A DNA stretch of 64,000 nucleotides from Geminicoccus roseus DSM 18922 (lineage in GTDB: Bacteria > Pseudomonadota > Alphaproteobacteria > Geminicoccales > Geminicoccaceae): assembly GCF_000427665.1 (NCBI RefSeq), contig NZ_KE386572.1, positions 3,906,373 to 3,970,372 of the forward strand, read 5' to 3'. Each line of letters begins with the position of its first letter. Positions within the stretch are counted from its first letter, which is position 1. The translations under genes and the position numbers were made by a program. The notes under the pieces are model-generated. The model did not search any database. It saw only the letters and a program-made list of their open reading frames with translations, and was not told the origin of the DNA. This document shows, piece by piece, positions 26,985-37,813 of this stretch.

Positions 26985-27091
26985 TCGGGTATGGAATCCA
27001 CGGGCAGGGAGAGGCTTGCTTTACGTGCGTGGTCGGTGAGGCTAGACGCGCGATCGAGATATCCGGTCGGACCGGAGGATACGAGGAACAG

Positions 27092-28933
27092 ATGCATCTT
27101 TACCGCACCCACACCTGCGGCCAGCTTCGCGCCGAGGATGTCGGCAGCACCGTCCGGCTGTCGGGCTGGGTCCAGCGCAAGCGCGACCACGGGCAACTCC
27201 TGTTCATCGACCTGCGCGACCATTACGGCATCACCCAGCTGGTCTTCCAGCCGTCCGCCGGGTTCTTCGACGAGGCGTCGAGGGTCCGGGCGGAGAGCGT
27301 GATCACCGTGACCGGCAGGGTGGTGGCCCGCGAAGCGACCACCGTCAACCCGGCACTGCCGACCGGGGCGATCGAGGTGGTGATCGAGAGCCTGAACGTG
27401 GAGAGCCAGGCCGACACGCTGCCGCTCGAGGTGGCGACCGACCGGGACTATCCGGAAGAGACCCGGCTGCGCTACCGCTTCCTCGACCTGCGCCGGCAGA
27501 AGATCCACGACAACATCGTGCTGCGCTCCAAGATCATCACCTCGCTGCGCCAGCGCATGGTCGCCCAGGGCTTCACCGAGTTCCAGACGCCGATCCTGAC
27601 CGCGTCCAGTCCTGAGGGTGCCCGCGACTTCCTGGTGCCGTCGCGCCTGCATCCCGGCCATTTCTACGCGCTGCCGCAGGCCCCGCAGCAGTACAAGCAG
27701 CTGCTGATGATCAGCGGCTTCGACCGCTACTTCCAGATCGCCCCCTGCTTCCGCGACGAGGACGCCCGCGCCGACCGCAGCCCCGGCGAGTTCTACCAGC
27801 TCGACGTCGAGATGAGCTTCGTCACCCAGCAGGACGTGTTCGACGCGGTCGGACCGGTGATCCATGGCGTGTTCGAGGAGTTCAGCGACTGGGAGGTTAC
27901 GCCCTACCCGTTCCCGCAGATCACCTATCGCGACGCGATGCTGCATTACGGCTCGGACAAGCCGGACCTGCGCAATCCGATCAGGATCCAGGACGTGACC
28001 GAGGTGTTCGCCGGCAGCGGCTTTGCCGTGTTCGCCCGGGCGATCGAGGGCAAGGGTGCGGTAGTGCGCGCCATCCCGGCCCCGGGTGCGGCCGCGCAGC
28101 CGCGCTCCTATTTCGACAAGATGGTGGCGTTCGCGCAGAGCCTGGGTGCGCCCGGCCTTGGCTACATCATCTTCCAGAATGGTGCTGCCAAGGGGCCGGT
28201 CGCCAAGTTCCTGGACGAGGAGCGGCTGGCACGGCTGAAGGATCTCGCCGGCCTTGCCGACGGCGACGCGGTGTTCTTCGTCTGCGACCAGAAGGCCGGC
28301 GCGGAGAAGCTGTCCGGGCAGGTGCGGGTCCAGGCCGGCGAGCAGCTCGGCATCTGCGAGAAGAACGCCTACCGGTTCTGCTGGATCGTCGACTTCCCGA
28401 TGTTCGAGTACGACGAGGACCTCAAGCAGGTGGTGTTCTCGCACAACCCGTTCTCGATGCCCCAGGGCGGCATGGAGGCGCTGAACGGCAAGGACCCGCT
28501 GGAGATCAACGCGTTCCAGTACGACATCGTCTGCAACGGCATCGAGCTGTCCTCGGGCGCCATCCGTAACCACCGGCCGGACATCATGTTGCGTGCCTTC
28601 GAGGTGGCGGGCTATGGCCGCGAGGAACTGGAGAACCGGTTCGGCGGCATGTTCCGGGCGCTGCAGTACGGCGCCCCGCCGCATGGCGGCATCGCCCCCG
28701 GCGTCGACCGGATCGTGATGCTGCTGGCGGACACGCCCAACATCCGCGAGGTCACCGCCTTCCCGCTGAACCAGCAGGCGCAGGAACTGGTGCTGGGCGC
28801 GCCCTCCACCGTGTCCGACAAGCAGCTCAAGGAGCTGAACCTGCAGCTCAGCCCGCTGGCGCGCGAGAAGCTGCGCGGCGACAAGGAGCCCGCCCCGGCC
28901 AAGCCGGCCGAGGATTTCGCGGCGCCCAACTGA
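27092..28933 (+). CDS. aspS: aspartyl-tRNA synthetase
   Basis: Class IIb tRNA synthetase. An N-terminal OB-fold anticodon domain ([20 protein letters not shown], about 22-41) leads to motif 2 ([20 protein letters not shown], about 222-241), a GAD insertion domain (about 320-420), and motif 3 ([18 protein letters not shown], about 531-548). 613 aa from ATG 27092, preceded by GGAGG and a second AGGA. Bacterial-type AspRS; whether it is non-discriminating (Asp/Asn) cannot be told without gatCAB context. Confidence 0.97.
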
Positions 28934-28943
28934 GCCCGGGCGA

Positions 28944-28969
28944 AGGGGCCGCCCGCGCGGGCGGCTCCT
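28944..28969. terminator. GC-rich hairpin between aspS and the GntR gene
   Basis: GCCGCCC (28948-28954) and GGGCGGC (28959-28965) form a perfect stem with a GCGC loop, extended outward by four more pairs including one G-T. It sits just after the aspS stop and before the end of the convergent regulator, so it may serve both. GCTTTCCCC follows rather than a T-run. Confidence 0.6.
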
Positions 28970-28991
28970 CGCTTTCCCCGGCGCCCGACGC

Positions 28992-29690
28992 TCAGTCCTG
29001 CAGGGCGTCGGCCTGGGCGTCGGCCACGGTCGGCAGTTCCTCGAACCATTCCTGGTGGGTGCGGGCCAGCGTGCAGGCCTGCTCCACGTCGCCCATGGCG
29101 ATGGCGTCCACCAGCGGCTGGTGGGTCTCGGCGATGGCCAGCAGGTCCAGGCCGGGCGCCAGCAGGGTGATGATGGTGCGGGTCTCGATCTGCAGCGACG
29201 TCCACATGCTGAGCAGGAGCGCGTTGCCGGACGCCTCGACGATCTGGCGGTGGAACGCCACGCTGTGCGTGCACATGGCGTCCAGGTCGCCGGCCTGGGC
29301 GGCAGCGCGCATCGCATCCACGCTGGCCTGCAGCCGCCGCGTGTCCTTGGCGAGCCTGGGGGTGGCCAGCCGGGTGGCGGCTTCCTCCAAGGCACCTCGC
29401 ACCACGTAAACCTCGCGCAGGCCGGCCTCGGAGAAGTCGCGGACGATGGTGCCGCGATGCGCCCGGGTGGTGACGAAGCCGATCGCCTCCAGTTCGCGCA
29501 GGGCCTCGCGCACCGGGGCCTGACTGGTCCCGAATTCCTCGGCAATCCGCATCTCGACCAGGCGCTCGCCTGGCCGGATCCGGCCGGAGGTGATCCGGCT
29601 GACCAGCGCGTCCTTGATCTGCTCGCGCAACGTCTTGCGTTTGACTGCCACGGCCACTCCAAGCAGGCGTTCTTCGGCCCGGTCGATCAT
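28992..29690 (-). CDS. GntR-family (FadR/FCD subfamily) transcriptional regulator
   Basis: A 232-aa regulator. The N-terminal winged helix-turn-helix (REQIKDALVSRITSGRIRPG, then GTSQAPVREALRELEAIGFV, about 23-73) is followed by a helical FCD ligand domain with the metal-ligand histidines in VAFHRQIVEASGN, AETHQPLVDAI and ARTHQEWFEEL. FCD regulators usually repress an adjacent operon and release DNA on binding an organic acid or similar ligand. It is transcribed away from the molybdenum hydroxylase operon, whose promoter carries a matching palindrome 66 bp from this start, so autoregulation and control of that operon are inferred. Confidence 0.92.
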   Translation of the reverse strand: MIDRAEERLLGVAVAVKRKTLREQIKDALVSRITSGRIRPGERLVEMRIAEEFGTSQAPVREALRELEAIGFVTTRAHRGTIVRDFSEAGLREVYVVRGALEEAATRLATPRLAKDTRRLQASVDAMRAAAQAGDLDAMCTHSVAFHRQIVEASGNALLLSMWTSLQIETRTIITLLAPGLDLLAIAETHQPLVDAIAMGDVEQACTLARTHQEWFEELPTVADAQADALQD

Positions 29691-29740
29691 GCCTGGACCT
29701 TAGCGGCGCCGCGCGCACCGAGATAGGGGCGGATGGCCCG

Positions 29741-29768
29741 TTGACAAGCTGCATCGATTATCGATAAT
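29741..29768 (+). promoter_or_regulatory. promoter of the molybdenum hydroxylase operon
   Basis: A perfect TTGACA (29741-29746) and GATAAT (29763-29768) are spaced by 16 bp, the best sigma-70 match seen in the window, within an AT-rich island. Predicted transcription start is near 29775, giving a leader of about 174 nt before the FAD subunit. Confidence 0.7.
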
Positions 29769-29769
29769 C
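29756..29769. promoter_or_regulatory. palindromic operator candidate for the GntR regulator
   Basis: GATTATCGATAATC is a perfect 14-bp palindrome that covers the -10 box. ATCGAT also occurs at 29753, 29760 and 29772. The size, AT-rich symmetric arms and position between regulator and operon suit a FadR/FCD repressor site. Confidence 0.65.
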
Positions 29770-29781
29770 AAATCGATCCAA

Positions 29782-29923
29782 ACTGTCCGGAGGATCCGGG
29801 GACGCGGCTGGCCGCGGCATCCAGGCAAGTCCGGACAGTCGATCGACAGCAACGTGAAGAACAGGGCCGGCTCCGCCAAGAGAAGCCGGAAGATCAGGGG
29901 TGGCGCAGCCGCGATGACGGCTG
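29782..29923 (+). other. structured leader of the molybdenum hydroxylase operon
   Basis: Three hairpins can be drawn. ACTGTCCGGA (29782-29791) pairs with TCCGGACAGT (29830-29839), enclosing GGAT/ATCC and CGCGGC/GCCGCG stems. CCGGCT (29867-29872) pairs with AGCCGG (29884-29889). CAGCC (29906-29910) pairs with GGCTG (29919-29923), just before the AAGGGAGG ribosome-binding site. I do not recognise a known riboswitch family. Confidence 0.45.
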
Positions 29924-29948
29924 GCCGTGAACCAAGGGAGGCGTCGCG

Positions 29949-30752
29949 ATGCTGACGTCCTTGCACCTGCCGCGCGACGCCGCGGAGGCGGCGCTTCTGG
30001 CTGCCCAGCCCGGCAGCGCCGTGCTTGCCGGAGGAACCGTCGTGATGCCGGCCGTCAATGCGGGAGCCCATGGCTGGACCCAGCTGGTCTGCCTGGCGCG
30101 CAGCGTCCTGGCGGGGGTGCGGATCGAGAACCGCCGGGCGCAGATCGGCGCCGCCACCACCCTGGCCGAGATCGGCCGCCACCCGGAGCTGGAATTCCTC
30201 CAGGCGGCCATCGAGAGCATCGGCTCGCCCAACCTGCGCAACCTCGCCACCATCGGCGGCAACCTGTTCGTGGCGCAGCCCTACGGCGACCTCGCCGTCT
30301 GCCTCCTGGCGCTGGAGGCGACGGTCGCGGTGCAGTCCACCGAGGGTGTGCGCGAGCTGCCGGTCGAGGCGGTGATCGCGGACGGGGTGGGCGACGGCAT
30401 CGTGGTCTCGGTGGGGTTCGAGCTGCCGGCCCAAGGGAGCTGGTTCTACCGCAAGGCCATGCGCCGCCAGCAGAACTCCGGGGCGATCGTGACCATCGCT
30501 GCGTGGCTGCCGGTCGAGGACGGCAAGGTCGCGAAAGCCCGGGTGGCGCTGGGCGGCTGCGGGCCCAGGCCCAGGCGGGCGCCCAGCGCGGAGGCGGCGC
30601 TGATCGGGCGAAAGCTCGATGCCCAGGCGGTCGAGGCGGCGGCGGCAGTGATCGGCGGGGACGCAGAGCCGTTCACCGACGCCCTGGCCAGCGCCTGGTA
30701 CCGGGCGCGGGTGCTGCCGGTGCATTTCCGCCGCGCCCTCCTGGGCGAGTGA
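29949..30752 (+). CDS. xanthine-dehydrogenase-family FAD-binding subunit
   Basis: Medium subunit of a molybdenum hydroxylase, passing electrons from the iron-sulfur subunit to an acceptor through FAD. 267 aa with both FAD motifs: LAGGTVVMPAVN (about 25-36) and TIGGNLFVAQPYGDLA (about 98-113). A C-terminal CO_deh_flav_C-type domain (ALGGCGPRPRRAPSAE, about 200-215) follows. It is preceded by AAGGGAGG. First gene of an eight-gene operon; the 2Fe-2S gene follows after 34 bp. Confidence 0.92.
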   Translation: MLTSLHLPRDAAEAALLAAQPGSAVLAGGTVVMPAVNAGAHGWTQLVCLARSVLAGVRIENRRAQIGAATTLAEIGRHPELEFLQAAIESIGSPNLRNLATIGGNLFVAQPYGDLAVCLLALEATVAVQSTEGVRELPVEAVIADGVGDGIVVSVGFELPAQGSWFYRKAMRRQQNSGAIVTIAAWLPVEDGKVAKARVALGGCGPRPRRAPSAEAALIGRKLDAQAVEAAAAVIGGDAEPFTDALASAWYRARVLPVHFRRALLGE

Positions 30753-30786
30753 CCACCCGACCCGCTTTCCTTGGGGGAAACCTGCG

Positions 30787-31281
30787 ATGCGATCCACCGC
30801 GATTGCGATCGACGTCAACGGCCAGGAGCAGGAGGCGCTGGTGCGGCCGGCGACCACGCTGCTGGCGCTCCTGCGCGACCAGCTGGGCCTGACCGCCGCC
30901 AAGCGCGGCTGCGAGCAGGGCGGCTGCGGGGCCTGCTGCGTGCTGCTGGACGGCAAGCCGGTGATGAGCTGCCTGGTCCCGGCCATGGCCGTGGACGGCC
31001 GCTCGGTGCGTACCCTGGAGGGGCTGGCGCATGGCGAGGAGCTTCATCCGGTCCAGGAGGCGTTCCTGGAGGAATGGGCCACCCAGTGCGGCTTTTGCAC
31101 CTCGGGCATGATCATGACCGCGCTGGCGCTCCTGGAGGAGCGGCCGGACCCCAGCCGCGACGAGGTGGTGCGGGCCTTGTCCGGCAATGTCTGCCGCTGC
31201 ACCGGCTATGAGGCGATCATCGACGCGGTGATGGCGGCGGCGGGGCGGATGCAGGCGCCGATGCGCCAGGCGGCGGAGTGA
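30787..31281 (+). CDS. molybdenum hydroxylase 2Fe-2S subunit
   Basis: Small electron-transfer subunit of 164 aa with two 2Fe-2S clusters. The plant-ferredoxin cluster ligands are Cys42, Cys47, Cys50 and Cys62 (RGCEQGGCGACC); the second cluster ligands are Cys101, Cys104, Cys136 and Cys138 (QCGFCTSG and VCRCTGYE). Complete and of normal length. The molybdopterin subunit begins 4 bp after its stop. Confidence 0.95.
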   Translation: MRSTAIAIDVNGQEQEALVRPATTLLALLRDQLGLTAAKRGCEQGGCGACCVLLDGKPVMSCLVPAMAVDGRSVRTLEGLAHGEELHPVQEAFLEEWATQCGFCTSGMIMTALALLEERPDPSRDEVVRALSGNVCRCTGYEAIIDAVMAAAGRMQAPMRQAAE

Positions 31282-31285
31282 GGCG

Positions 31286-32677
31286 ATGACCAGGCTGGAA
31301 GGCATCGACCGCAGCTTCTTTGTGCCGGAGAACAACGAAGGGCTGGACGTGGTGGGCACCGCGGTGCCGCGGGTGGACGCCCGCGGGCATGTTACCGGGC
31401 GGACCCGCTACTACGAGGACTGGTCGTTCCCGGGCATGCTGCACCTGAGAATCGTGCGCTCCACCCGGCACCACGCCCTGATCCGCAGCGTCGACCAGCG
31501 CGCGGCGCTGGCGGTCCGGGGCGTGGTCCGGATCCTTTCCTGGCAGGACGTGCCGAACAATTGGTACACGATCCTGCGCCTGATCGGGGTGCAGCCGGAC
31601 GACGAGCCGGTGCTGGCCGAGGACCGCGTGCTCTATGTGGGCGAGCCGATCCTGGCGGTGATCGCCGAGAGCGCCGAGGCCGCGGCGCTTGCCGCCGACA
31701 AGGTCGAGATCGAGTACGAGGACCTGCCGGCGGTGTTCGACGTCGAGGCGGCGGTGGCACCGGGGGCACCGCTGGTCAATCCCCGCCAGGGCAACAACTG
31801 GTTCACCTACGAGGGCCATCACTGCCGTCGGATCCGCTTTGGCGACGCCGACGCGGCGCTGGCATCGGCCGACCATCGCTGGCGCTATCGCTACGACAGC
31901 TCCCCGATCGAGCATGCGCCGACCGAGACCACCGGCTGCATCGCCAAGCCCGAGGGTAATGGCCGGATCACCGTCTATTCCAACACCCAGGCGCTCTACT
32001 TCACCCTGGACAACAGCGCGCTGACGCTGGGCATCCCGTTCAGCCGGCTGCGGATGATCGGCGGCACGGTGGGCGGCGGGTTCGGCGGCAAGGTCGACGT
32101 GATGGTCGAGCCGCTGGCGATCCTGGCGGCGATGCAGACCGACCGGCCGGTGAAGTTCGCCTACAGCCGGGCCGAGGAGATGCAGGTCTCCTCGCCGCGG
32201 GCGGCCGAGCGGATCTATATCGAGGACGGGGTGATGGCGGACGGCCGGATCGTCGCCCGCAAGGTGACCCTTTATGTCGATGCCGGCGCCTATGCCCGGC
32301 ACTCGCCCTACGGCACCACCAAGGCCGCGGCGCACATGCCGGGGCCCTACACCATCCCGAACGTCCATGTGGACGCCTTCTGCGTGTTCACCAACCGCAC
32401 GCCGTCCTCGGCGATGCGCGGGTTCGGGGTGACGATCGGCGACTTCGCCCTGGAGAGCCAGATGGACCGGATCGCCCGGCATCTCGGCATGGACCCGCTC
32501 CAGCTGCGGCTGATCAACGCCTATCGCGACGGCGACACCAAGGCGCACCGCAAGAAGGTCAGCGGCGCCGCCCTGGTCGAGGTGATCCAGGCGGCGGCCG
32601 GCGAGACCGGCCAGGAACTGCCGGCGCGCTTTACCGCGATGAGCTCGACCCGGCGGGAGGAGAGCGCCCATGGCTAG
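31286..32677 (+). CDS. molybdenum hydroxylase large subunit, N-terminal half
   Basis: A 463-aa protein equal to the first part of a xanthine-dehydrogenase-type large subunit. It starts with the a/b hammerhead domain (RVDARGHVTGRTRYYEDW, about 30-47) and continues into the molybdopterin-binding domain. YSNTQALYF (Gln that contacts Mo in XDH), GGTVGGGFGGK (about 259-269) and AMRGFGVTIGDF (about 373-384, substrate-site Arg) follow. It stops normally instead of running on into the second half. The active-site loop is not the AYRCSFR of CO dehydrogenase. The gene overlaps the next by 8 bp. Confidence 0.9.
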   Translation: MTRLEGIDRSFFVPENNEGLDVVGTAVPRVDARGHVTGRTRYYEDWSFPGMLHLRIVRSTRHHALIRSVDQRAALAVRGVVRILSWQDVPNNWYTILRLIGVQPDDEPVLAEDRVLYVGEPILAVIAESAEAAALAADKVEIEYEDLPAVFDVEAAVAPGAPLVNPRQGNNWFTYEGHHCRRIRFGDADAALASADHRWRYRYDSSPIEHAPTETTGCIAKPEGNGRITVYSNTQALYFTLDNSALTLGIPFSRLRMIGGTVGGGFGGKVDVMVEPLAILAAMQTDRPVKFAYSRAEEMQVSSPRAAERIYIEDGVMADGRIVARKVTLYVDAGAYARHSPYGTTKAAAHMPGPYTIPNVHVDAFCVFTNRTPSSAMRGFGVTIGDFALESQMDRIARHLGMDPLQLRLINAYRDGDTKAHRKKVSGAALVEVIQAAAGETGQELPARFTAMSSTRREESAHG

Positions 32678-33674
32678 GCTGCACGGCCGCGGCGTGGCCG
32701 CGGTGAACTACCCGACCGGCATGAACCTGGGCGGCGACCCGTCCCAGGCCCTGGTCCACGCCACCACCACCGGCGGCTTCGTGATCACGCTCAGCTCGGT
32801 CGACCTTGGGCAGGGGATCAAGACCGTGGCGGCGCAGATCGCGGCGGAGACGCTGGGGGTACCCTGCGACACTGTCTGGGTCGACACCGCCGACACCGAC
32901 ACCGGCCCGCACTGCATGGGCACCTTCGCCTCGCGCGGGACCCACCGGATCGGCAACGCGGTGATCATGGCCGCCAAGGAGGCGCGCGCGGTGATGCTGG
33001 AGGCGGCCGCCGAGGAGCTGGAGGTCGATCCGCTGGACCTGGAGACCGACGGCAAGGGCAGGATCCAGGTCAAGGGCGCACCGGAGCGCTCGATCTCGGT
33101 GCTGGACGTGGCGCTGGCCGCCCACTTCAAGCAGGGCCGCACCATCTCCGGGCGTGGCATCTTCCTCAAGCCCAAGTCCGAGCCGGTGCCGGAGACCGGC
33201 GAGATGGACCCGGACAGCTGTCAGGCCCATGCCTGCACCATCGCCGAGGTCGAGGTCGACGACGAGACCGGCGAGGTGACGGTGCTCTCGCTGGTCAACG
33301 CCTACGAGGTCGGCCGGGCGATCAACCCGGCCATGGCGCACCAGCAGATCGTGGGCGGCGCCTGGATGGGCATCAGCCATGCCCTGTTCGAGACCACCGA
33401 GCCCTACTACCCCGACCGCAGCCACGGGCCGACCGACTTCGCCAGCTACCTGATGCCGGGCCCGGCCGACTGCGCCCGGATCAGCTCGGTGATCATCGAG
33501 CGGCCGGCCGAGAACGGGCCCTACGGCGCCAAGGGCATCGGCGAGATGACCGCCAACTCGCCGATCCCGGCGATCGCCAACGCGATCTTCGACGCCACCG
33601 GCGTGCGCGTGGAATCGCTGCCGATCACCCCGGAAAAGATCCTGCGCGGCCTGGACGCGCTCAGGACGGCCTGA
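32670..33674 (+). CDS. molybdenum hydroxylase large subunit, C-terminal half
   Basis: A 334-aa protein equal to the second molybdopterin-binding part of the large subunit. It shows VDLGQGIKTVAAQIAAETLG (about 45-64), GTFASRGTHRIGNAV (about 85-99), and GPYGAKGIGEMTANSPIPAI (about 286-305), whose Glu is the catalytic base of the family. It has its own ATG 32670, preceded by GGGAGGAGAG within the end of the upstream gene, in the +1 frame relative to it. A natural split with coupled translation is therefore more likely than a frameshift. Sizes resemble NdhL/NdhM of nicotinate dehydrogenase. Confidence 0.9.
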   Translation: MARLHGRGVAAVNYPTGMNLGGDPSQALVHATTTGGFVITLSSVDLGQGIKTVAAQIAAETLGVPCDTVWVDTADTDTGPHCMGTFASRGTHRIGNAVIMAAKEARAVMLEAAAEELEVDPLDLETDGKGRIQVKGAPERSISVLDVALAAHFKQGRTISGRGIFLKPKSEPVPETGEMDPDSCQAHACTIAEVEVDDETGEVTVLSLVNAYEVGRAINPAMAHQQIVGGAWMGISHALFETTEPYYPDRSHGPTDFASYLMPGPADCARISSVIIERPAENGPYGAKGIGEMTANSPIPAIANAIFDATGVRVESLPITPEKILRGLDALRTA

Positions 33675-33711
33675 CGGCCGGAAACCCATCTTCAGGAAGG
33701 AAACGGACAGC

Positions 33712-34017
33712 ATGCTCAAGGTGATCTCGTTGATGAAGCGCAAGCCCGGCATGAGCTTCGAGGAGTTTAGGCACTGGCTCACGGTCGAGCATGTCGAACT
33801 CGGCAAGAAGCTGCCGGGCGTGCGCAAGTACACGGTCAACGTCCTCCAGGAGGAGAGCGCCGATGCCCCCTATGACGGGGTGAGCGAGCTCTGGTTCGAC
33901 AGCAACGAGGCGCGGCTGGAAGCGTTCGGCACCGAGGCCGGCAAGGCGGCGGGCGCCGACGCCGCGGCCCACGCCGACCGCGTCCACCTCCTGACGTCCG
34001 AGCACGTGCAGATCTGA
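33712..34017 (+). CDS. EthD-family protein
   Basis: A 101-aa alpha/beta-barrel (dimeric ferredoxin-like) protein. ISLMKRKPGMSFEEFRHWLT (about 5-24) and WFDSNEARLEAF fit EthD/REDY-type proteins, which include small isomerases and heme- or polyketide-related enzymes. Its role here is not known; position in the operon suggests it acts on the oxidised product. ATG 33712 follows AGGAAACGG. The stop overlaps the ATPase start (TGATG). Confidence 0.8.
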   Translation: MLKVISLMKRKPGMSFEEFRHWLTVEHVELGKKLPGVRKYTVNVLQEESADAPYDGVSELWFDSNEARLEAFGTEAGKAAGADAAAHADRVHLLTSEHVQI

Positions 34018-34907
34018 TGTCCCAGCCGGACCCTGGCCGCCTCGCGCGGCCAGGCCAGCCCGAGGCGCTGGCCGGCGACCTGGAGCGGCTGGGCTATTTC
34101 GCCGGTCCGGGCCTTGCCACCGCCCTGGCGCTGGCGCTGCATTTCAACAAGCCGCTCTTGCTCGAGGGCGAGCCCGGGGTCGGCAAGACCGAAGTCGCCC
34201 AGGTCCTGGCGACCTGGCTGGAGCGGCCGCTGATCCGGCTGCAATGCCATGACGGGATCGACGCCGGCCAGGCGCTCTACGAATGGAACCATGCCCGCCA
34301 GCTCCTGGCGATCCGCAGCCAGGAGGGCGCCCGGCTGGACGATCTGTTCGACCCGTCCTTCCTGATCGAGCGGCCGCTGCTCAAGGCCCTGCGCATGGAC
34401 CAGGGGGCGGTGCTGCTGATCGACGAGATCGACCGCGCCGACGCCGAGTTCGAGGCCTATCTCCTGGAGTTCCTGGCCGACTTCCGCATCACCGTGCCCG
34501 AACTCGGCGCGATCGCCGCGAAGGTGCCGCCGGTGGTGGTGCTCACTTCCAACCGGACCCGCGAACTGCACGACGCGCTGAAGCGGCGCTGCCTCTACCA
34601 CTGGATCGACTTTCCCGAGCCCGCGCGCGAGCGGCGGATCCTGGAGGCGAGGGTGCCCGGGCTGCGCGCGCAGGCCGCCGCCGCCCTGGTGGAGGCGATC
34701 ACGACGGTGCGGCGCCTGCCGCTGGCCAAGCGCCCGGGCATCGCCGAGACCGTCGACTGGGCCCGCGCGGTTACCGTCCTGGAAGGCGAGGGGGTCGCCT
34801 GGCCGGACTGCCTGCGCCGCAGCCTGGGCCTCCTGCTCAAGGACCAGGACGACCTGCGCCAGGTCCTGGCCTGCGACCTGGCCTGCCAGCCCGGACCCGG
34901 CGAATGA
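34017..34907 (+). CDS. MoxR-family AAA ATPase (CoxD-like)
   Basis: A 296-aa AAA+ chaperone. Walker A GEPGVGKT (51-58), Walker B AVLLIDEIDRAD (about 132-143), sensor VLTSNRTRELHDALKRRCLY (about 179-198). MoxR ATPases paired with a VWA protein are known from CODH clusters (CoxD/CoxE), where they are needed to complete the metal site. The same maturation role is inferred here because both lie downstream of the molybdenum hydroxylase genes. Confidence 0.9.
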   Translation: MSQPDPGRLARPGQPEALAGDLERLGYFAGPGLATALALALHFNKPLLLEGEPGVGKTEVAQVLATWLERPLIRLQCHDGIDAGQALYEWNHARQLLAIRSQEGARLDDLFDPSFLIERPLLKALRMDQGAVLLIDEIDRADAEFEAYLLEFLADFRITVPELGAIAAKVPPVVVLTSNRTRELHDALKRRCLYHWIDFPEPARERRILEARVPGLRAQAAAALVEAITTVRRLPLAKRPGIAETVDWARAVTVLEGEGVAWPDCLRRSLGLLLKDQDDLRQVLACDLACQPGPGE

Positions 34908-36028
34908 GCGAGCAGGCCGCCGCCCTGCTGGACGGCTTCGTGCTGGCGCTGCGCGGCATGGGCGTAGCAGTGCCCATGGAGGCCCACGCCCAGTTCCTCG
35001 CCGGCCTGCGCGCGTTGCCGCCGGCCTCGATCGACGGGCTGTACTGGTTGGCGCGCACCAGCCTGCTGCGCTGCCGGGACGACATCGAGCCGTTCGACCA
35101 GCTGTTCCAGGCCTGGTTCAAGGAAGGCCGGGTCGGGGTGGAGACCGATGGCGAGACGGCGCCGGACGCGGAGGATCGCCCGGCGCCGGCTGGCCGGGAG
35201 ATGGGCGGCCCGCTGCCGGTCATGCCGGGCGAGGGCACCGGCAAGGCGGCCGCCAGCGACGATCTGCGGGGCGCCCGGGCGGAGGCGGATGACCTGGAGC
35301 AGGACCCGGGCCTGCGCCGGTTCGGGCGGGAGGTCGTGGCGGCGCTGCCGGAGCGGCGCTCGCGGCGGCTGCGCCCCGACCGGCACGGCCGGGCCATCGA
35401 CCTGCGCCGGACCGTGCGCGCCGCGGTCCGCCAGGGCGGCGAGATCACCGGTCTTGTTCGGCGCGGCCGCCCGGCGCGCAAGCGGGCGCTGGTGCTGCTG
35501 GTCGACGTGTCGGGCTCGCACCAGGGGCTGATCGACGGCCACCTGCGGATGGCGCGGGCGATCTCGGAACAGACGCCCTGCGAGGTGTTCTGCTTCGGCT
35601 CACGGCTGACCCGGCTGACCCGGGCGCTGGCCGGGGCCAGCGCGCAGGCGGCCCATGAGCGTGCCCTGGCCGCGATCCCCGACTTTGCCGGCGGCACCCG
35701 GATCGGCCCGGCCCTAGCGGCGCTGCTGGGCGAGCCGCGCTTTGCCGGCCTCCTGCGCGGCGCCGTGGTCATGGTGGTCTCGGACGGGCTGGAGCGCGGC
35801 GACCCGGCGATCATGGCGGCGTCGGCCCGCCGAATCGCCCGGCTCGCCCACCGGCTGGTCTGGCTCACGCCCCTGGCGGGCGACCCGCGCTTTCGCCCGC
35901 GCACCCGCGGCCTGCTGGCGGTCCTGCCGCATCTGGACCGGCTCGGCAGTGCTGCCGACCAGGCCGCGATCCTGGCCGAGTTCGGCCGCCTGCGCGCACT
36001 GGAACGAACGGGGAGGACCCTGGCATGA
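34904..36028 (+). CDS. VWA-domain protein (CoxE-like)
   Basis: A 374-aa partner of the MoxR ATPase. The helical N-terminal part is followed by an acidic linker (about 80-135), then a von Willebrand A domain with the MIDAS LLVDVSGSHQG (about 197-207, DxSxS), GTRIGPALAAL and VVMVVSDGLERGDP. The last motif carries the third MIDAS Asp. ATG 34904 overlaps the ATPase stop; the stop overlaps the amidohydrolase start. No signal peptide, so cytoplasmic. Confidence 0.88.
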   Translation: MSEQAAALLDGFVLALRGMGVAVPMEAHAQFLAGLRALPPASIDGLYWLARTSLLRCRDDIEPFDQLFQAWFKEGRVGVETDGETAPDAEDRPAPAGREMGGPLPVMPGEGTGKAAASDDLRGARAEADDLEQDPGLRRFGREVVAALPERRSRRLRPDRHGRAIDLRRTVRAAVRQGGEITGLVRRGRPARKRALVLLVDVSGSHQGLIDGHLRMARAISEQTPCEVFCFGSRLTRLTRALAGASAQAAHERALAAIPDFAGGTRIGPALAALLGEPRFAGLLRGAVVMVVSDGLERGDPAIMAASARRIARLAHRLVWLTPLAGDPRFRPRTRGLLAVLPHLDRLGSAADQAAILAEFGRLRALERTGRTLA

Positions 36029-36924
36029 TCCCGATCATCGACGCCCACCACCATATCTGGCGCAAGAACGACCTGGCCTGGCTGTCCGGGCCAATGCAGC
36101 CGCGCATCTTCGGCCCCTACGAGCCGATCCGGCGCGACTACCCGATCGAGGAGTACCTGGCCGACCTCGACGGGTGCGGGGTGGTGGGCTCCGTCTATGT
36201 CCAGACCAACTGGCCCAAAGGCGGCGAGCTGGACGAGGTCCGCTGGGTGGAGGCGGAGGCCCGGCGCAGCGGCTGGCCGCAGGCGATCGTCAGCTACCTG
36301 GACCTCCTGGACGTGAAGGGGGCGGAGGCGATGCTGGACGCCCAGCAGGCCGCCTCGCCCCGGCTGCGCGGGGTCCGGATGCAGCTGCACTGGCACGAGA
36401 ACCCGCTCTACCGGTTCGCGGCCGACGCGAACCTGATGGGCGACGCGCGCCTGCGGCGAAACCTCGCCATGATCGCTGAGCGCGGCCTATTGTTCGATTT
36501 CCAGATCTTCGCCAGTCAGATGCGGGACGGCGCGGCGCTGGCGGCGGACCTGCCCGGGCTGCCGTTCGTGCTGATGCATGCCGGGATGCTGGAGGATCTG
36601 AGCCCGCAAGGCCGCTCGGCCTGGCGGGAGGGCATGCGGCGGCTGGCCGACCAGCCGAACGTGCATGTGAAGCTCAGCGGGCTCGGCACCTTCCTGCATC
36701 GCTGCGATCCCGCCCATGTCGAGGACGTGACGCTGCAGACGGTGGAGATGTTCGGACCAGAGCGCTGCGTGTTCGGCAGCAACTTCCCGATCGAGAAGCT
36801 GTGGACCAGCTACCCGGCCCTGGTGGAGGCGCACCGGCGGGCGCTGTCATCCCTGGATGAAACCGCGCAGCGACGGATCCTGCACGACAACGCGGCGAGC
36901 CTGTACCGGCTGGCCGGCGCTTGA
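36025..36924 (+). CDS. amidohydrolase-2 family hydrolase (TIM barrel)
   Basis: A 299-aa metal-dependent-hydrolase fold protein. DAHHHIW (6-12) supplies the first metal ligands; RGVRMQLHWHEN, FVLMHAGMLED (about 187-197), KLSGLGTF and VFGSNFPIEKLW (about 249-260) follow. Relatives hydrolyse lactones such as 2-pyrone-4,6-dicarboxylate or decarboxylate aromatic acids. The usual GSDxP aspartate is Asn here. As the last gene of the operon it probably hydrolyses a lactone or amide made after hydroxylation; the substrate is unknown. Confidence 0.85.
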   Translation: MIPIIDAHHHIWRKNDLAWLSGPMQPRIFGPYEPIRRDYPIEEYLADLDGCGVVGSVYVQTNWPKGGELDEVRWVEAEARRSGWPQAIVSYLDLLDVKGAEAMLDAQQAASPRLRGVRMQLHWHENPLYRFAADANLMGDARLRRNLAMIAERGLLFDFQIFASQMRDGAALAADLPGLPFVLMHAGMLEDLSPQGRSAWREGMRRLADQPNVHVKLSGLGTFLHRCDPAHVEDVTLQTVEMFGPERCVFGSNFPIEKLWTSYPALVEAHRRALSSLDETAQRRILHDNAASLYRLAGA

Positions 36925-36932
36925 ACATGCGA

Positions 36933-36960
36933 CCGGCCGGCCCCGCGAGGGACCGGCCGG
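36933..36960. terminator. hairpin ending the molybdenum hydroxylase operon
   Basis: CCGGCCGG (36933-36940) pairs with CCGGCCGG (36953-36960). Inside, after one mismatch, CCC (36942-36944) pairs with GGG (36949-36951) around a GCGA tetraloop. It lies 8 bp after the amidohydrolase stop and before the end of the convergent PRC-barrel gene. Confidence 0.65.
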
Positions 36961-36996
36961 CAGCCGGATCATCCGTTCGGCAGAAAGCCTACGGGA

Positions 36997-37701
36997 TCAC
37001 TGATTGGTGGTGGCGGGCATCGCGTCGTCGGTGGCGGCCGGCATGCCGTCCATCGGAGCCGCGGGGACCGCCTCGGTGCGGGTCGCCCAGCCGCCGTCGG
37101 TCTCCTCGATCTCCGGCAGGGCCTCGACCTGCTCCTTGCTCATCGAGACCACCAGCTCATCGGCGTCGCCCTGGGCCATCTGGATCTGGTTCAGGTCGAG
37201 GGCCACGGTGCGCTGGCCGATCCCGAGGAAGCCGCCAACATCGACCAGGACGTTCTGGATCGAGCCGTCGTCGCCGATCAGCAGGTCGCTCACCTCGCCG
37301 ACCGAGTTGCCCTCGGCGTCGACGATGTTGGCGTCCATCAGGTCGTCGGCGCTGTAGTTGCCGGCGATGGTGCCGGCGAAGCTGCCGGGCTCGGTGCCGC
37401 TGTAGGACTGGTAGCGCTGGGCATCGGCGTTGGTCATGCTGGGCGCGGTGCCCATGCTGCCGTCGTCAGTCTCGGTCATCTCCGGGCCAGCGCCCTCGAT
37501 GCCCTGCTCGACTTCCTGAGCGGCGCCCTCCGCCATGTCGCCGGCCTGGTCGGCGGTGTTCTCGACGCCCTGCTGCATCTCCTCGACAGCGTTGCCGGCA
37601 CCCATTGCCGGGTCCGTCGTCGTCGCATTCTCTTGAGCATAGGCGAAACTGGCGGTGGTGAGGCCGACCACGGCGACACTGGCGAGAAGTGACTTTCTCA
37701 T
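36997..37701 (-). CDS. secreted PRC-barrel domain protein
   Basis: A 234-aa exported protein. A signal peptide (LLASVAVVGLTTASFAYA, cleaved at about 22) is followed by an acidic low-complexity stretch (about 25-95, Glu, Thr, Met and Ala). A PRC-barrel-like domain then spans about 115-200: DLMDANIVDAEGNSVGEVSD, LLIGDDGSIQNVLVDVGGFL, and RTVALDLNQIQM. The tail is Ala/Met/Pro-rich. Such proteins are common in alphaproteobacteria, with no settled role. The start is the ATG at 37699-37701, before which GAGGAACC is seen. Confidence 0.85.
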   Translation of the reverse strand: MRKSLLASVAVVGLTTASFAYAQENATTTDPAMGAGNAVEEMQQGVENTADQAGDMAEGAAQEVEQGIEGAGPEMTETDDGSMGTAPSMTNADAQRYQSYSGTEPGSFAGTIAGNYSADDLMDANIVDAEGNSVGEVSDLLIGDDGSIQNVLVDVGGFLGIGQRTVALDLNQIQMAQGDADELVVSMSKEQVEALPEIEETDGGWATRTEAVPAAPMDGMPAATDDAMPATTNQ

Positions 37702-37753
37702 GACCTTGGTTCCTCTGCTCCGATTGTTGCTGCGATCTGATGATCGACTGCCA

Positions 37754-37766
37754 GAGCAACTTGCTC
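37754..37766. promoter_or_regulatory. inverted repeat upstream of the PRC-barrel gene and phaA
   Basis: GAGCAA-C-TTGCTC is a perfect 6+6 inverted repeat in the 262-bp divergent gap. No clear -10/-35 pair was found nearby, so a regulator site is only a possibility. A direct repeat GCGGGTGGA (37899 and 37917) lies nearer phaA. Confidence 0.3.
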
Positions 37767-37813
37767 CCACGGCGCGAGGTTCCGAGATATTCTGAGAAAA
37801 TCCACACAGCTAA

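Follow-up and report, generated by a model that had tools for sequence, protein, structure and literature searches.

A widespread molybdenum hydroxylase cassette of Geminicoccus roseus with its own MoxR/VWA pair, an EthD-family protein, a COG3618 hydrolase and a single putative operator

Introduction

The nicotinate dehydrogenase of Eubacterium barkeri, NdhFSLM (PDB 3hrd), is a hydroxylase of four chains with a split molybdenum (Mo) subunit, NdhL and NdhM being separate chains (PMC10331938). In the cox cluster of CO dehydrogenase, the genes of a MoxR ATPase and a VWA protein lie next to those of the Mo hydroxylase; according to PMC4240915, CoxD sulfurates Mo, CoxE together with CoxF supplies copper, and a part in bringing CO dehydrogenase to the membrane has been proposed for CoxG. 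In the furoate pathway hmfABCDE, a Mo enzyme hydroxylates furoyl-coenzyme A (CoA), a lactone is opened and the pathway ends at 2-oxoglutarate; no gene is assigned to the lactone hydrolysis (PMC6678421). Here we describe a nine-gene cassette with a Mo hydroxylase as its core, found in a stretch of 64,000 nucleotides of Geminicoccus roseus DSM 18922 (contig NZ_KE386572.1, positions 3,906,373–3,970,372; hereafter the window).

Like NdhFSLM, the cassette encodes a four-chain enzyme with a Mo subunit in two parts, but it adds a MoxR/VWA pair, an EthD-family protein (EthD) and a hydrolase of the COG3618 group (AmdH), and its host is an alphaproteobacterium. With the cox cluster it shares the MoxR ATPase and the VWA protein beside a Mo hydroxylase; in contrast to that cluster, it has no copper-cysteine loop and no CoxF, its Mo subunit is split, and the hydrolase and EthD are added. 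The order of Mo-dependent ring hydroxylation (furoyl-CoA dehydrogenase) and lactone opening in the hmf pathway is the one proposed below for the cassette. However, the hmf enzymes act on CoA thioesters with the help of a ligase and a thioesterase, and neither of these was found by Pfam among the nine cassette genes. The literature searched for the gene set and the furoate route yielded no description of the cassette, in agreement with an earlier note, made from the letters of this DNA, whose author knew of no described pathway with this exact set. The cassette is a Mo hydroxylase system of many soil bacteria, with records from three bacterial phyla, and no assignment of its substrate was found in the same literature.

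Gene content and distribution of the cassette

The nine genes form one unit in the window, namely a GntR/FCD regulator gene on the minus strand and eight head-to-tail genes on the plus strand (29949–36924), in the order flavin adenine dinucleotide (FAD) subunit, 2Fe-2S subunit (FeS), N- and C-terminal halves of the Mo subunit (MoN and MoC), EthD, MoxR, VWA and AmdH (Table 1). The earlier note had described eight overlapping Mo hydroxylase operon genes that face a GntR/FCD regulator. Every gene that it named is present, and all nine proteins were assigned to Pfam families above the family cut-off. Its start at 29741 is the -35 box, and the regulator gene, which belongs to the unit, lies outside its coordinates 29741–36924. 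According to the table of open reading frames (ORFs), the gaps are 34 nt (FAD–FeS), 4 nt (FeS–MoN) and 37 nt (MoC–EthD), and the overlaps are 8 nt (MoN/MoC), 1 nt (EthD/MoxR) and 4 nt each (MoxR/VWA and VWA/AmdH).

Named genomes were scanned with a seven-row MoC alignment, and the best 80 of at least 570 confirmed stretches were analysed (loci are cited by L numbers). A search for the conserved gene order had been suggested earlier, and the order was recovered and is no product of chance: 23 of the 80 loci contain exactly FAD-FeS-MoN-MoC-EthD-MoxR-VWA-AmdH behind a divergent GntR gene, and 43 more have the same order minus EthD, with GntR present or absent. A divergent GntR gene was found in 56 loci. 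The record titles include Mesorhizobium and other Hyphomicrobiales, a Rhodospirillaceae isolate, Solirubrobacter, many Actinomycetota (Nonomuraea, Asanoa, Paractinoplanes and others) and two metagenome-assembled genomes (MAGs) of Thermomicrobiales, one of them cut off after MoC; the core order was found in Alphaproteobacteria, Actinomycetota and a Thermomicrobiales MAG. The cassette is widespread and self-contained, and it is not peculiar to the genome of G. roseus. With the host counted, MoC matches at E ≤ 1e-80 were present in 16 of 398 genomes sampled from the phylum, and AmdH matches at E ≤ 1e-60 in 9 of 385 sampled genomes of the class.

The loci differ in their accompanying genes. Type A loci contain GntR and either EthD between MoC and MoxR or a YCII protein after AmdH (Pfam YCII in L086). 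Type B loci have UPF0261, PEP-hydrolase-like, flotillin and two SRPBCC genes ahead of FAD and, where they are not cut off, MBL and/or SMP-30/isochorismatase genes after AmdH, while type C loci have an AraC-type gene and an SRPBCC gene ahead of FAD. The Solirubrobacter loci are without a divergent GntR gene; in L052 a same-strand GntR/FCD gene lies upstream, and L079 and L082 also carry XdhC. Five type B loci (L024, L155, L156, L176 and L177) represent a larger sister cluster with SMP-30/isochorismatase as a fusion and an ABC ATPase fused to UPF0261 (Pfam, L024).

Two shorter arrangements were also noted. A haloarchaeal plasmid of Salinigranum rubrum (L154, 9328–14434) carries a split Mo hydroxylase (FAD, FeS, MoN and MoC) with cyclase-family and SRPBCC genes, and MoxR, VWA and AmdH are absent beside it. 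In L045 (11011–13122), the order GntR-FAD-FeS-MoN-MoC without EthD, MoxR, VWA or amidohydrolase is followed by unrelated genes on the opposite strand.

A FastTree phylogeny of concatenated MoN and MoC from 92 loci and the window, with a midpoint root, grouped the actinobacterial EthD loci with L078, as sister to a three-locus YCII clade; both stand beside a larger YCII clade. Since the tree sets the EthD loci between YCII clades, at least two EthD/YCII changes are needed. The locus L072 (AraC and SRPBCC) was nested in type A, and L178, from a genome of the same class, fell among the named Mesorhizobium loci on very short branches. The distances of MoC and AmdH in 80 sequences were correlated with r = 0.906, a value computed without a control.

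Promoter and putative operator

The earlier note had placed the operon behind one strong promoter. TTGACA-N16-GATAAT was indeed the sole sigma-70-type match in the region 29650–37100 (mean of 0.3 in shuffled sequences). Its -10 box is overlapped by the putative operator ATTATCGATAAT, to which the 5.7 Mb host genome contains no other match even when one mismatch is allowed. One promoter beneath a dedicated putative operator is consistent with an inducible operon, as the note had supposed.

The nonamer ATCGATAAT was found in 50 of 56 GntR–FAD intergenic regions (the window and 55 loci) and is absent from those of L042, L046, L048, L058, L067 and L078. It occurred 0.185 times on average and at most twice in 200 shuffles, and in one of 1081 random stretches from the same loci. 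Note that the nonamer was chosen from the regions in which it was counted, so the shuffles control for chance and are no independent test.

The exact 12-mer was sought in 20 other type A genomes, where it was present once in 14 and absent from six (L037, L040, L041, L043, L053 and L060), the regions of which contain the 9-mer. In all of the 15 actinobacterial genomes, a 16-mer form occurred once per genome with up to one mismatch. Exactly one site was thus present in 29 of 35 genomes of relatives, and each of these 29 falls in the GntR–FAD interval. These 35 genomes were picked by hand, mostly for a known site (all 15 actinobacterial ones), so that its presence was expected and the finding is the single copy. 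Because a single operator site was found in the host and in the genomes of relatives, the GntR/FCD regulator appears, on this sequence evidence, to have one target. A wider regulon that would expose a transporter was rejected, since the search of the host and the 35 other genomes gave no second site.

Residues H147, H190 and H212 of the regulator are conserved in at least 95% of 57 sequences, that of the window included; FCD-domain histidines of this sort bind a metal and an acid ligand. A single recognisable site, conserved in different phyla, allows the inducer of the presumed repressor to be sought directly with the purified protein, which would name the substrate class.

Proposed function

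We tentatively propose that the cassette is a self-contained, ligand-induced catabolic or detoxifying module in which a small ring compound undergoes hydroxylation and its product is isomerised before the ring is opened; this is possible, though somewhat short of probable. Such a cassette would be horizontally transferable. Its GntR/FCD repressor would sit on ATTATCGATAAT across the -10 box and would be released by a small acid, either substrate or product. The derepressed operon would make a four-chain Mo hydroxylase of the nicotinate dehydrogenase type with the Mo subunit in two chains, and the CoxD/CoxE-like MoxR/VWA pair would mature this enzyme, probably via sulfuration of Mo and not copper insertion. 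The Mo enzyme may then hydroxylate a small ring compound beside the heteroatom to give a lactone or lactam tautomer, in which a double bond may be moved by the EthD-type barrel before AmdH would open the ring. The genomes searched revealed no consistent transporter or lower pathway, and none sharing the operator; a substrate that enters freely or is formed within the cell is therefore probable, as is a product that feeds straight into central metabolism. No consistent pathway genes flanking the type A loci were found in the top 40 clusters or in the maps of 14 loci.

Judged by sequence profiles and models, both accessory enzymes independently point to lactone chemistry. The best profile match of EthD was 2ftr (EthD family, E 6e-12), followed by 2ifx and the 4-methylmuconolactone methylisomerase 3hfk/3hds (about 1e-7). 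The EthD model had a predicted local distance difference test score (pLDDT) of 96.1, and its best Foldseek matches were 2ifx (putative) and the methylisomerase structures 3hds, 3hfk and 3hf5. EthD thus resembles 4-methylmuconolactone methylisomerase in sequence profile, family and fold, and differs from it in having the additional invariant residues D83 and H87; these and H27 are invariant in 22 of 22 aligned sequences.

The amidohydrolase of the earlier note was recovered as Pfam Amidohydro_2, with lactonases among its nearest folds. AmdH belongs to the COG3618 group in both sequence (8.4e-25 to 4dlf) and fold. Its model (pLDDT 95.1) gave a VIA Z of 35.0 to 4dlf (275 aligned residues, root-mean-square deviation 2.1), 30.0 to 6uvz and 27.0 to 24.3 to the 2-pyrone-4,6-dicarboxylate hydrolases 4i6k, 2ffi and 4d8l; the values for named decarboxylases ran from 22.7 downward. 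An HxH pair, H185, K216 and E257 are conserved, and the whole-domain fold, the HxH motif and His185 are common to AmdH, 4dlf and the 2-pyrone-4,6-dicarboxylate lactonases. The segments H122-W-H124 and NFPIEK mark the AmdH group within this comparison. The structure 4dlf is of a COG3618 protein of Burkholderia multivorans. Hobbs et al. reportedly described a COG3618 L-fucono-1,5-lactonase in 2013, and 4dlf is presumably that enzyme.

Two unrelated proteins resembling lactone enzymes (a methylisomerase for EthD, lactonases of the fuconolactonase group and of 2-pyrone-dicarboxylate for AmdH) are kept beside a hydroxylase capable of forming lactone or lactam tautomers, and hydroxylation, isomerisation and ring opening are suggested for this reason. 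In addition, the hydrolase stays in place in two type A loci (L067 and L101) where MoxR and VWA are missing, which speaks for the module. The core order conserved in loci of several phyla, the single operator site, the genome of the same genus that has these flanks but not the block, the MoC–AmdH correlation and the exchange of small proteins in one slot count in its favour as well. In L067 the cassette is followed by genes of a solute-binding protein (Pfam SBP_bac_1), ABC-type genes and UPF0261/PEP-hydrolase genes. An AmdH-led search gave seven places outside the host with at least 53% identity, five of them in Mo cassettes (L019, L022, L118, L119 and L121).

A number of observations weigh against the proposed module. 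Similarity of fold does not show function, and the best sequence match of EthD, 2ftr, is a protein of unknown function. His52, which was mutated in the methylisomerase structure 3hfk and lies in a loop that we take to have a catalytic role, has no counterpart in EthD, where the loop is shorter. In AmdH, the Asp at the end of beta-8 in 4dlf is replaced by Asn253, which is kept in at least 98% of 82 sequences, and a plain lactonase mechanism is therefore not assured; 6uvz likewise has Asn at this position. The two remaining places of the AmdH-led search, with 60% identity, were without Mo genes in the fetched stretch (L117 and L120), as were three weaker ones (44, 39 and 38%), so the AmdH family is not confined to the cassette. 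AmdH is absent from nine of the 80 loci; seven of these reach a contig end, and L045 and L113 do not. In L113 a transposase-like gene follows MoxR, according to a reading of its translation. Neither EthD, YCII, ABM nor SRPBCC was found in L045 and L067, which do not end at a contig end within the locus. In the sister types, the SRPBCC proteins may point to a role of the small protein in electron transfer or in contact with the membrane. Finally, 16 of the 56 type A loci have ABC ATPase genes in their flanks, six of them within 3 kb, on either side and strand, and a transporter is conceivable in part of these loci. Note that the clustering of flanks was full of shadow ORFs on the opposite strand and that its largest cluster probably corresponds to the ABC ATPase genes.

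Of the two AmdH homologues found without Mo genes, that of L117 lies in tandem with a 43% copy and that of L120 is close to a contig end beside SMP-30/isochorismatase.

A more specific version of the proposed module is a complete, CoA-free route in which a five-membered heteroaromatic acid (furan- or pyrrole-2-carboxylate) would be hydroxylated by the split Mo enzyme, the EthD/YCII/ABM barrel would isomerise the butenolide or lactam to the enol, and the COG3618 enzyme would open it to 2-oxoglutarate or its amide; for such a route to 2-oxoglutarate the enzymes of the cassette would suffice. We regard this version as improbable. If true, it would explain the absence of a consistent transporter, ligase and lower pathway as well as the single site of the repressor, and the lactone-opening step of the known furoate pathway would gain an enzyme.

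Alternative functions

Rather than acting as an isomerase, the small protein may assist the hydroxylase in electron transfer or in docking to the membrane, in a role similar to that of CoxG for CO dehydrogenase. The slot is occupied in 75 of the 80 loci, by EthD in 30, YCII in 21, SRPBCC in 21 and ABM in three. EthD, YCII and SRPBCC are mutually exclusive, as no two of them were found in one locus. Eight loci have none of the three; three of these, all from Solirubrobacter (L052, L079 and L082), contain an ABM protein after AmdH (Pfam ABM), and of the last five, L042, L044 and L078 reach a contig end, unlike L045 and L067. An ABM-like match of 33% in L085 was not counted, because it lies far upstream on the opposite strand. 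CoxG is an SRPBCC protein, SRPBCC proteins occupy the slot in type B and C loci, and type B loci also carry flotillin, all of which would suit a docking partner. However, both the sequence and the fold of EthD match methylmuconolactone methylisomerase, its three invariant residues are kept throughout, and a role in electron transfer or docking is rather unlikely. When the EthD and YCII profiles were compared with hhalign, no match emerged (probability 0.10); the two are treated as kin on the assumption that both are placed in the fold group of dimeric alpha+beta barrels. The exchange of EthD, YCII, ABM and SRPBCC in one slot offers a way to assign function to poorly understood small families.

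The cassette could also oxidise a sugar or hydroxy-aldehyde, with the COG3618 enzyme as an aldonolactonase as in the breakdown of L-fucose. The group of 4dlf, which includes a known L-fuconolactonase, would fit this, and NCBIfam ranked glyceraldehyde dehydrogenase subunits at the top for the FAD and FeS chains, though below the cut-off. In addition, SMP-30 lactonases are encoded in type B loci, one of which is followed by SDR and FAH genes, and a reading of translations places sugar-type ABC permeases near some type C loci. However, type A loci were not consistently accompanied by a sugar transporter, dehydratase or aldolase, the nearest matches of MoN and MoC are the chains of nicotinate dehydrogenase, and oxidation of an aldehyde by a Mo enzyme yields the acid directly, which would make a lactonase superfluous. 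We consider such a sugar module unlikely.

The Mo hydroxylase itself was assigned to the xanthine oxidase family, as it contains FAD, 2Fe-2S and Mo-cofactor domains above the Pfam cut-offs and a conserved Glu in the C-terminal Mo domain. This residue, Glu292 of MoC in the GIGE-type motif GIGEM, is kept in at least 98% of 97 sequences, and we take it to be the catalytic Glu near Mo. The best PDB match of MoN in phmmer was 3hrd_A, the large Mo subunit of nicotinate dehydrogenase (239.5 bits; next match 159.4), and that of MoC was 3hrd_B of the same enzyme (169.1 bits; next match 146.1). The Mo subunit was split in all 99 loci with both genes, MoN stopping before the start of MoC or overlapping it by no more than 30 nt, and a frameshift or assembly error behind the split was thereby ruled out. 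The host genome has seven PF01315 matches, one below the cut-off; the open frame of the cassette has 481 codons, in comparison with 788 to 913 in the others. The MoN of the five type B loci inspected for this feature carries an extra tail of about 100 residues, proline-rich in several. Such a tail or linker at the end of MoN, ending in RFSS(V/I)(F/S)G(S/T/L)RRR, was noted in L018, L019, L022, L023, L024 and L156.

The similarity of both Mo chains to NdhL and NdhM, well ahead of the rest, and the fact that these are also separate chains (PMC10331938) would favour an operon for the hydroxylation of nicotinate or another pyridine carboxylate, in which 6-hydroxynicotinate or a similar lactam is made and its ring is opened by the amidohydrolase. 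However, aromatic hydroxynicotinate is not directly hydrolysable, and the hydrolase belongs to the COG3618 group. Nicotinate dehydrogenase genes are accompanied by those of hydroxynicotinate reductase and enamidase, and the known anaerobic nicotinate route reduces hydroxynicotinate first; Pfam revealed neither enzyme among the nine cassette genes, to which this search was confined. The probability of a nicotinate operon is accordingly low.

The MoN loop AMRGFGV(T) aligns to the copper-cysteine loop AYRCSFR of 1ffu (CutL, CO dehydrogenase), and AMRGFG is conserved in at least 98% of 95 sequences, so bound copper of the CO dehydrogenase type is not expected. The claim that the active-site loop is not of the CO dehydrogenase type thus held, and identity with CO dehydrogenase was rejected on account of this replacement. 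A fragment of a larger CO-dehydrogenase-like system for the use of CO or another trace gas is very hard to reconcile with this loop, with a MoN score of 162.7 bits against a cut-off of 991 for the NCBIfam large-subunit model (which spans the whole subunit, MoN being half of it) and with a hydrolase and EthD that have no role in CO oxidation, even though the MoxR/VWA pair is of the CoxD/CoxE type and the FAD chain has a domain similar to that of CO dehydrogenase.

MoxR/VWA pair

As the earlier note stated, the operon has its own MoxR/VWA pair (Pfam AAA_5 and VWA_CoxE). A MoxR AAA+ ATPase stands beside a VWA_CoxE protein, and both adjoin the Mo hydroxylase, as in pairs of the CoxD/CoxE type; MoxR also reached 248 bits with the NCBIfam model MadB, below its cut-off of 475 bits. 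Both genes are present in 71 of the 80 loci. Among the nine loci without the full pair, L041, L044, L046, L051 and L097 reach a contig end, and L045, L067, L101 and L113 do not. The loci L067 and L101 suggest that the maturation pair can be lost. Since the VWA protein adjoins an enzyme without the copper loop, the cassette suggests that a CoxE-like VWA protein has a role other than copper delivery alone.

Genomic location and neighbouring genes

The coordinates of the cassette features in the window are given in Table 1.

Table 1. Features of the Mo hydroxylase cassette (positions in the window)
Feature	Position	Strand	Remarks
GntR/FCD regulator	28992..29690	-	divergent; Pfam GntR 62.6 bits, FCD 87.6 bits
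Promoter TTGACA-N16-GATAAT	29741..29768	+	consensus scan, 11/12 matches
Putative operator palindrome ATTATCGATAAT	29757..29768	no strand	overlaps -10 box
FAD subunit	29949..30752	+	Pfam FAD_binding_5 and CO_deh_flav_C
2Fe-2S subunit (FeS)	30787..31281	+	Pfam Fer2 and Fer2_2
MoN, N-terminal half of Mo subunit, NdhL-like	31286..32677	+	Pfam Ald_Xan_dh_C and MoCoBD_1
MoC, C-terminal half of Mo subunit, NdhM-like	32670..33674	+	Pfam MoCoBD_2
EthD-family dimeric alpha+beta barrel protein, proposed product isomerase	33712..34017	+	Pfam EthD
MoxR-type AAA+ ATPase, putative CoxD-like maturation factor	34017..34907	+	Pfam AAA_5
VWA protein, putative CoxE-like maturation factor	34904..36028	+	Pfam VWA_CoxE 159.1 bits
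AmdH, Amidohydrolase_2/COG3618 hydrolase, proposed ring-opening lactonase	36025..36924	+	Pfam Amidohydro_2

Upstream of the cassette lies the aspartyl-tRNA synthetase gene (aspS, 27029–28933), and downstream there is a reverse-strand ORF (36997–37770) followed by a thiolase gene; aspS and the thiolase were named from a reading of their translations. No tRNA genes were found in the window, no integrase was noticed among its ORFs that were read, and defence-system models gave weak AAA matches only. A genome of the same genus (G001) had no MoN match at E ≤ 1e-60. In this genome, about 1.1 kb separates aspS from the thiolase gene on a single contig, with the 36997–37770 ORF represented by a homologue in between, and about 8 kb corresponding to 28934–36996 of the window, between aspS and the following ORF, are absent from the same site. 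The flanks of the window and of this genome are 88.3% and 85.5% identical over 2.9 kb each.

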